A stretch of DNA of 55,633 nt from Pelagibacterales bacterium SAG-MED39 (GTDB lineage: Bacteria > Pseudomonadota > Alphaproteobacteria > Pelagibacterales > Pelagibacteraceae). The notes beneath the pieces are model-generated. The model saw nothing but the letters and a program-made list of their open reading frames with translations, was not told the DNA's origin and ran no database searches. Numbering within the stretch: position 1 is the first letter of the stretch; each line of letters begins with the position of its first letter. Of the stretch, positions 11,054-11,257 are shown piece by piece. The position numbers were made by a program, and so were the translations under genes. The stretch is taken from NCBI GenBank assembly GCA_014653625.1, contig JACWEI010000006.1, positions 1 through 55,633 of the forward strand, read 5' to 3'.

Positions 11054-11130
11054 TGGTGGGCCCGCCAGGACTCGAACCTGGGACCAATACATTATGAGTG
11101 TACTGCTCTAACCAACTGAGCTACAGGCCC
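11054..11130 (-). tRNA. tRNA with CAT anticodon (elongator Met or Ile2)
   Basis: The cloverleaf is complete: acceptor GGGCCTG pairs with CGGGCCC (one T-G wobble); the D-loop has a normal GG; the anticodon loop is CTCATAA; the T-loop is the canonical TTCGAGT; CCA is encoded. The CAT anticodon could read AUG, or AUA after lysidine modification. C4-G69 and C5-G68 pairs are present, as in E. coli tRNA-Ile2, so Ile2 is possible. Met elongator is equally compatible. Confidence 0.95.
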
Positions 11131-11182: not shown

Positions 11183-11257
11183 TGGTGGGCCGTGTTGGTT
11201 ACGCTCCAACTACCCCTGCAATGTCAATGCAGTACTCTACTATTGAGCTAACGGCCC
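11183..11257 (-). tRNA. tRNA-Val(GAC) with non-canonical D- and T-loops
   Basis: Acceptor (GGGCCGT/ACGGCCC), anticodon (CTGCA/TGCAG) and T (GTTGG/CCAAC) stems are perfect, and CCA is encoded. The anticodon loop TTGACAT gives GAC, valine. The D-loop reads AATAGTA, without the usual GG, and the T-loop reads AGCGTAA in place of TTCRANY. The stems are under obvious constraint while both elbow loops differ from consensus. It could be a working variant or an early pseudogene. Confidence 0.88.

Follow-up and report, generated by a model that had tools for sequence, protein, structure and literature searches.

The tRNA-Val(GAC) gene of this Pelagibacteraceae (SAR11) genome probably specifies a working elongator tRNA in which an alternative elbow arose through compensating changes. 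The gene lies at positions 11183–11257 on the (−) strand of the window (the whole 55,633 nt stretch of DNA that was analysed), is 75 nt long with its CCA encoded, and was identified through ARAGORN, the Rfam tRNA model RF00005 and its identity to genes of relatives. What could be established, from sequences only, is conservation of the gene, compensation within its stems, joint states of its loops, and covariation of residues 18 and 55, of residues 54 and 58, and of the residue preceding 18 with residue 59 (pre18-59 below). Expression, charging with valine, a normal L fold and the reading of GUU and GUC codons are inferred, and the functional assignment is made without expression, charging or structure data.

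ARAGORN called the gene as tRNA-Val(GAC), and its RF00005 score was 53.6 bits (gathering score, 29). A cloverleaf, a GAC anticodon (11223–11225, (−) strand, as given by both ARAGORN and the sequence) and an encoded CCA following A73 are all present. The preliminary description had held all checked stems to be perfect, and this is so for the acceptor stem (GGGCCGT/ACGGCCC), the anticodon stem (enclosing the loop TTGACAT) and the T-stem (GTTGG/CCAAC); the D-stem (GCTC/GAGT), however, contains G10-T25, which is not a Watson-Crick pair. Its loops and numbering (A18, a retained G19, A54, G55 and T58) were the same as in our direct reading, in which the D-loop AATAGTA (11238–11244, (−) strand) corresponds to A14 A15 T A18 G19 T20 A21, with T as the residue before A18, and the T-loop AGCGTAA (11199–11205, (−) strand), kept in relatives with compensated T-stem changes, to A54 G55 C56 G57 T58 A59 A60. 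The G18/T55 and T54/A58 combinations of the canonical elbow are absent, and the residues G19, C56, G53 and C61 are present, without any data on their pairing. Residues 44–48 are GGGTA; residues 15 and 48 are A and A, which is not a standard Levitt pair, and residue 60 is A, where a pyrimidine is usual. The valine determinants listed in the accessible part of PMC9976931 include A35, C36, A73, G45 and G20; the window gene has the first four but carries T20 in place of G20.

As set out in the accessible sections of PMC7912444, the D-loop/T-loop elbow is highly conserved, residues of the T-loop are tRNA hallmarks and no modified nucleotide of tRNA is more universally conserved than psi55. The canonical contacts described there are G18-psi55, G19-C56 and a trans Watson-Crick/Hoogsteen U54-A58, with 54-58 stacked on 53-61, a continuous stack of C61, A58, G18, R57 and C56-G19, U55 touching G18, and residues 59 and 60 flipped out. 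The window gene resembles this arrangement in its cloverleaf, 7-nt T-loop, G53-C61, G19-C56, R57 and A14, and differs from it in having A-G at 18-55, A-U at 54-58, A at residue 60 and a non-Levitt 15-48. The same source records A54-A58 in eukaryotic initiator tRNA, which thus shares A at residue 54; in the window gene, unlike the initiator, residue 58 is U rather than A, 18-55 is exchanged as well, and the tRNA is a bacterial elongator. In the elbow that we propose, G18-U55 would have become A18-G55 and U54-A58 would have become A54-U58, each by matched substitution, G19-C56 would be kept, and the residue before A18 may pair with residue 59.

A canonical tRNA(CAT) gene is located 52 nt downstream of tRNA-Val(GAC) on the same strand (11054–11130, (−) strand; ARAGORN), and many relatives have such a neighbour close to their Val(GAC) gene. 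From its likeness to tRNA-Ile(GAT) it is probably tRNA-Ile2, an assignment that is untested; it may be a lysidine-type Ile2 instead of Met. Promoter-like and terminator-like sites near tRNA-Val(GAC) were not more numerous than in shuffled sequences.

The gene was found in 114 of the 151 genomes of its genus, with 75/75 identity in 95 of them (the window's own genome included) and lower identity in 19. This degree of identity rules out an assembly error or chance as the source of the loops. The 19 lower matches comprised 14 with exchanged loops, four that were canonical by ARAGORN (G037, G065, G118 and G148) and one locus (G028) at which ARAGORN called no tRNA. Amongst the relatives with exchanged loops we observed changed acceptor stems (GGGACTG/CAGTCCC, GGGAGCT/AGTTCCC), anticodon stems (CCTCG/CGAGG, CTCGA/TCGAG) and T-stems (GATGG/CCATC, GTAGG/CCTAC), with loops that were unchanged or differed by a single base (AGCATAA in L053, AATAGAA in L055 and AATAGTTA in L056); stem changes were therefore compensated whilst the D- and T-loops stayed fixed.

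Across the order, a pattern for the exchanged T-loop matched 149/247 genomes (146/159 in the window's genus, 2/4 in genus g4 and 1/23 in g5), and a pattern for the canonical T-loop matched 50/247 (five in the window's genus, two in g2, one each in g3 and g5, and 41 in the second family). No genome of the 247 matched both and 48 matched neither. A looser pattern that included the D-arm, run on 74 genomes with these 48 among them, resolved 22 of the 48 as 21 canonical genes and one intermediate (G320). The remaining 26/247 gave no Val(GAC) with any of the three patterns; 12 of these belong to the second family, ten of the 12 being < 80 % complete, and others are near-complete (e.g. G204, 97 %). 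In some of the 26, a less stringent DNA comparison found weak matches at positions not listed. Two copies matching the exchanged Val(GAC) pattern were seen in G167 (C1:141249–141293 and C1:397221–397265).

Joint states, and INTERMEDIATE, were observed in these relatives: a D-loop with GG goes with a TTCRA T-loop in canonical genes, and AG in the D-loop goes with AGCRT in exchanged ones. Canonical Val(GAC) loops were present in G191 and G297 as well as in G037, G065, G118 and G148. In the intermediate G320 (D-loop ATTAGTA, T-loop TGCAATC), residues 18 and 55 are A and G but T54-A58 is kept, and this gene may represent the remnant expected of a stepwise route in which 18-55 changed first and 54-58 second. 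As exchanged Val genes occur in the window's genus (g1), g4 and g5, and canonical ones also in g1 and g5, the distribution suggests more than one switch event, a reversal or a transfer, although no tree was built.

These data bear on the possibility that the gene is a pseudogene in decay and that all GUN codons are read by Val(TAC). Val(TAC) could read all four of these codons if its U34 were suitably modified, it is present in the complete relative G012, and the 26 genomes without a pattern match (notwithstanding the weak looser matches in some) also count in favour of this reading. Neither broken stems nor relaxed conservation, by which a pseudogene would be recognized, is found; 75/75 identity in 95/151 genomes, compensated stem changes beside fixed loops, joint loop states and the recurrence of these loops in viral tRNAs across many isoacceptors (see below) make decay extremely improbable.

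The valine isoacceptors were assessed in G012, which is complete (a single contig of 1,343,202 bases) and yielded 32 tRNA matches, all of which were read. It has one Val(GAC), which is exchanged and is the sole GAC valine tRNA of this genome, and one Val(TAC), which is canonical; this is the outcome of the check for a second Val(GAC) proposed in the preliminary description. It had also been stated there that the proposal would be refuted by canonical loops in close relatives if these came with a second intact Val(GAC) gene. The first half of this condition is met, but none of the 247 genomes matched both T-loop patterns and G012 has one GAC gene. Species of staphylococcal tRNA-Gly dedicated to cell-wall synthesis have non-consensus D- and T-loops and are extra copies with a side role, and a similar diversion of valyl-tRNA, with the altered elbow weakening EF-Tu binding, might be considered for the window gene, both loops of which are likewise altered. 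The staphylococcal genes are extra copies, however, whereas the window gene corresponds to the single GAC isoacceptor amongst the 32 tRNAs of G012, and no extra isoacceptor beside a canonical gene of the same anticodon was found in G012 or by the patterns. Moreover, canonical orthologues lie close to the corresponding neighbouring tRNA in several relatives, and the same elbow occurs in viral tRNAs under 19 isoacceptor names, those of the AGCRT loci described below being often arrayed with ordinary tRNAs. A role outside protein synthesis is thus very unlikely, and we retain the reading of a working elongator.

In G012, A18 with G55 was read in Phe and Thr(GGT) in addition to Val(GAC), three of its 32 tRNAs. 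The genome that contains the window (22 tRNA matches, 78 % complete) has the exchanged Val and an A18-G55 Phe, but its Thr(GGT) is canonical. A pattern for A18-G55 in any tRNA matched 29/48 chosen Pelagibacterales genomes (second family, 0/10), the carriers being Val in g1, g4 and g5, Phe in g1, g5 and g6, and His in g2 (G151 and G157). The SAR11 Phe, the Thr(GGT) of G012 and the g2 His keep T54-A58 beside A18-G55 (L012, L093, L103; L199, L200). The His variant also occurs in Pelagibacteraceae AG-470-E16 (L270) and in HIMB114 (L238), whose sequence is identical over the matched stretch to that of G151/G157, in support of the SAR11 assignment in the preliminary description. Within the class, the pattern matched 3/289 genomes, all from the window's own family, with the limitation that it is blind to other D-loop layouts and to variable loops of other sizes.

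In genome contigs, A18-G55 with a GCRA T-loop was found in at least 120 stretches, using a pattern that required a purine at 45 and the D-stem GAGC to leave out SAR11 Phe and Val. Among the matches listed, 74 of 80 were tRNAs by ARAGORN, as were 102/106 unique sequences from all of the at least 120 stretches; record titles include Patescibacteria groups, Verrucomicrobia, Streptomyces and Nostoc. A18-G55 alone is thus a recurrent natural variant, shared by other SAR11 tRNAs (Phe, Thr(GGT) and His) and by contigs of other phyla. Gly, Asp, Ala and Lys tRNAs with the full exchanged elbow were noted in Verrucomicrobia contigs (L255, L257, L285 and L290). An elbow change unique to SAR11 or to Val(GAC) can be ruled out, as A18-G55 occurs elsewhere and the full set is present in viral tRNAs.

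The evidence for covariation is chiefly viral, because the loops of SAR11 Val alone hardly vary. For a comparison of four classes, 847 loci with 5009 tRNAs (4304 unique) were numbered by a simple script. Duplicates, tRNAs without a CCA end or outside 71–79 nt, and those in which the script could not place the D-loop or T-stem (1360/4304 unique) were dropped before counting. The resulting tables, covering 2933 tRNAs, exclude T-loops without C56 and residues 18–19 other than GG or AG, so that they cannot reveal a T or C at residue 18. Amongst these mostly viral tRNAs, 18-55 was G-T or A-G in 2875/2933 and 54-58 was T-A or A-T in 2844/2933; exceptions included A18-T55 (35) and G18-G55 (four).

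In scans of viral contigs with the T-loop AGCRT and residue 18 free (A or G), A18 was found in 12/12 stretches (nine unique), which are Val(GAC), Val(TAC) and Met(CAT) and often lie in arrays with ordinary tRNAs. With ATCRT, in which T55 is kept, G18 was found in 107/107 unique sequences from at least 120 loci, and in 81/81 from the 80 loci among the matches listed. Ile(GAT), Asn(GTT) and other tRNAs of viral loci L354–L473 carry this loop, with 54-58 exchanged and G18 and T55 kept. Among the matches listed, TGCRA went with A18 in 77 and G18 in three of 80 unique tRNAs, and TTCRA with G18 in 141/141 and A18 in none. Searching the viral contigs for A18 combined with T55 yielded 40 stretches in all, with 35 unique tRNAs, several of which have an ambiguous 18–19 position.

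Unique tRNAs of the viral loci numbered ∼3100 (3102 by a second count); removal of 536 pattern matches left 2566, of which 875 were unassigned. In this pattern-independent set the main classes (18-55/54-58) were GT/TA 1434, AG/TA 76, GT/AT 63 and AG/AT 13, followed by G-T/A-A 30, T-T/T-A 19, G-C/T-A 13, A-T/T-A 10, C-T/T-A seven and G-G/T-A two; tRNAs with T55 thus included 19 with T18 and seven with C18. No A-T/A-T or G-G/A-T tRNA occurred in it. As both positions covary and all four combinations occur, 18-55 and 54-58 appear to be two separate exchangeable pairs. Covariation of each pair in ∼2900 tRNAs, together with the agreement in state, canonical or exchanged, between the two loops of each same-genus relative (G320 being intermediate), lends good support to the earlier suggestion of paired change rather than random decay. 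As the loci are related and largely collected by pattern, class counts are not counts of independent events and P-values are nominal; nor are class sizes frequencies, since the scans fixed much of the D-arm or T-loop and several counts are only lower bounds.

The doubly exchanged class (A18-G55 with A54-T58) comprised 73 tRNAs with 19 isoacceptor names, of which 56 were viral, 12 were SAR11 Val and five came from other bacterial contigs. Here, pre18-59 was A-T in 34, T-A in 33, T-T in three and C-A in three, so that it was A-T or T-A in 67/73 and failed in 6/73 (Fisher's test on the A/T table, nominal P = 7e-17); the A-T form was found under 14 isoacceptor names and the T-A form under eight. 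After clustering at 80 % identity, A-T or T-A remained in 47/53, and the mutual information of 0.73 bits was the highest of the position pairs tested, against 0.54 for 15-48. Covariation of pre18-59 distinguishes this class from the canonical elbow: the pairing had no support in the AG/TA (342 tRNAs, P = 0.75) and GT/AT (192 tRNAs, P = 0.38) classes, and in the GT/TA class (2181 tRNAs) P was 0.03 in the opposite sense. All 73 doubly exchanged tRNAs had G-C at 53-61, and few of them had a standard Levitt pair at 15-48 (A-A in 25 and A-C in 13 of 73). Residue 60 was A in 70 and G in three; more broadly, T60 was found in 0/265 A54-T58 tRNAs vs 2115/2579 T54-A58 tRNAs. We infer that A60 may be a form of negative design, as pairing of A54 with U60 would lengthen the T-stem to six pairs and cause the loop to collapse.

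Two geometries could accommodate these pairs. In one, the fold would be near-canonical, with the replacement pairs in place of the originals and an extra pre18-59 pair. In the other, a short helix between the D- and T-loops, made of pre18-59, A18-U58 and G19-C56 with R57 bulged, would replace the intercalated elbow; T58 is available to A18 as a partner, and 67/73 doubly exchanged tRNAs have a Watson-Crick combination at pre18-59. The Steinberg group has reportedly engineered suppressor tRNAs in which the D- and T-loops form a double helix; of the pairs expected in such a helix, pre18-59 covaries in the same 67/73 and 18-58 shows no variation. Against the helix, T58 and A54 also occur with G18 (192 tRNAs) and A18 also occurs with A58 (342 tRNAs), residue 18 matching residue 55 in each case. 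A scan with residues 18, 54 and 55 free gave one C58 tRNA (with A18) in 81 unique ones among the matches listed, too few to assess G18-C58. The helix is therefore doubtful, though still a serious contender; the near-canonical fold is favoured, as 18-55 and 54-58 covary also in tRNAs with only one of the changes, but the data do not settle the matter.

Enzymes that modify the T-loop were sought with profile searches in 29 chosen Pelagibacterales genomes and 14 control genomes. TruB_N had no match in 12/12 genomes of the window's genus (seven of them single-contig), 3/3 of g5 and 2/2 of g6, and was present in g2 (2/2), g3 (2/2), g4 (3/3), the second family (5/5) and the controls (14/14). TrmFO was over the cut-off in 0/29 genomes (controls, 7/14). 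Sub-cut-off TrmFO matches were seen in 28/29, those of 49–58 bits lying in frames of 622–640 aa; these look like MnmG and were left uncounted. PF05958, the TrmA-type family, had no match in 12/12 genomes of the window's genus; over the cut-off it was found in 1/29, as a partial match of 42 bits in the second-family genome G156 (controls, 11/14), and a match under the cut-off was seen in G157. TruB thus appears to have been lost from the window's genus, g5 and g6, and U54 and U55 are probably unmodified in the window's genus, which is inferred from absence, as another enzyme could act. The preliminary description had pointed out that TruB (psi55) and TrmA (m5U54) could not modify this tRNA as usual. 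Its T-arm, 53-GAGCGUAAC-61, indeed does not fit the TruB consensus 53-GUUYRANYC-61 given in the part of PMC7912444 that was available, yet the point is mostly moot with no TruB_N or PF05958 match in 12/12 genomes of the genus and TrmFO over the cut-off in 0/29.

Such losses raise the possibility that the elbow drifted once U54 and U55 conferred no benefit through modification and were free to change, a view with which the lack of TruB_N and PF05958 matches in the window's genus, of TruB_N matches in g5 and g6, and of TrmFO matches over the cut-off in all 29 genomes would agree. Enzyme loss is not needed for the change, however, since genomes of g4 that keep TruB (G242 and G296) have the rewritten Val and those of g2 that keep it (G151 and G157) have A18-G55 His. 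In addition, 29/32 tRNAs of the TruB-less G012 do not have A18-G55, and paired states would not survive free drift. Escape from these enzymes as a sufficient main cause is ruled out by the changes in TruB-keeping genera; drift after their loss is rather unlikely, and the loss may have been permissive without being causal.

The SAR11 gene might have gained its elbow through recombination of the chromosomal locus with a tRNA carried by a virus, which would account for the same loop set in viral Val(GAC) and for the 17-nt anticodon arm CTGCATTGACATTGCAG, which the viral Val(GAC) L345 and the SAR11 gene have in common. G037, however, has the same acceptor and anticodon arms as the window gene with canonical loops, G320 resembles an intermediate of change in place, the acceptor stems are unlike viral ones, and no similar tRNA stretch was found in 50,697 phage records. 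A viral source is thus quite unlikely, and we continue to favour matched substitution within the chromosomal gene. The same exchanged set in virus-encoded tRNAs suggests, on sequence grounds, a second workable way of building a tRNA elbow. We propose only tentatively, and at slightly less than even confidence, that there is a second discrete natural elbow, consisting of W-A18-G19 with A54-G55-C56-R57-U58-W59-A60, with pre18-59 paired and 18-55 and 54-58 exchanged, which would be viral in many isoacceptors, fixed in a housekeeping tRNA across most of the sampled genomes of one SAR11 genus (146/159) and without need of psi55 or m5U54.

That non-consensus elbows can work is said to have been demonstrated by the Steinberg group with selected suppressor tRNAs having altered D- and T-loops; those are laboratory selections, whereas the variants described here are natural, conserved and compensated. 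No published description of the exchanged elbow was recognized, which is weak evidence, as only open-licence literature (CC0, CC BY or CC BY-SA) was covered. According to the accessible part of PMC12678497, an ocean tRNA survey profiles tRNA-seq reads by canonically conserved nucleotides, and we infer that such filters might discard a tRNA with the exchanged elbow. The geometry is open to direct test via compensatory mutants. In this conserved chromosomal tRNA, four hallmark residues are exchanged as matched sets, with a third covarying contact in addition; if the proposal is true, it would show which features of the elbow are necessary and which are one solution among several.
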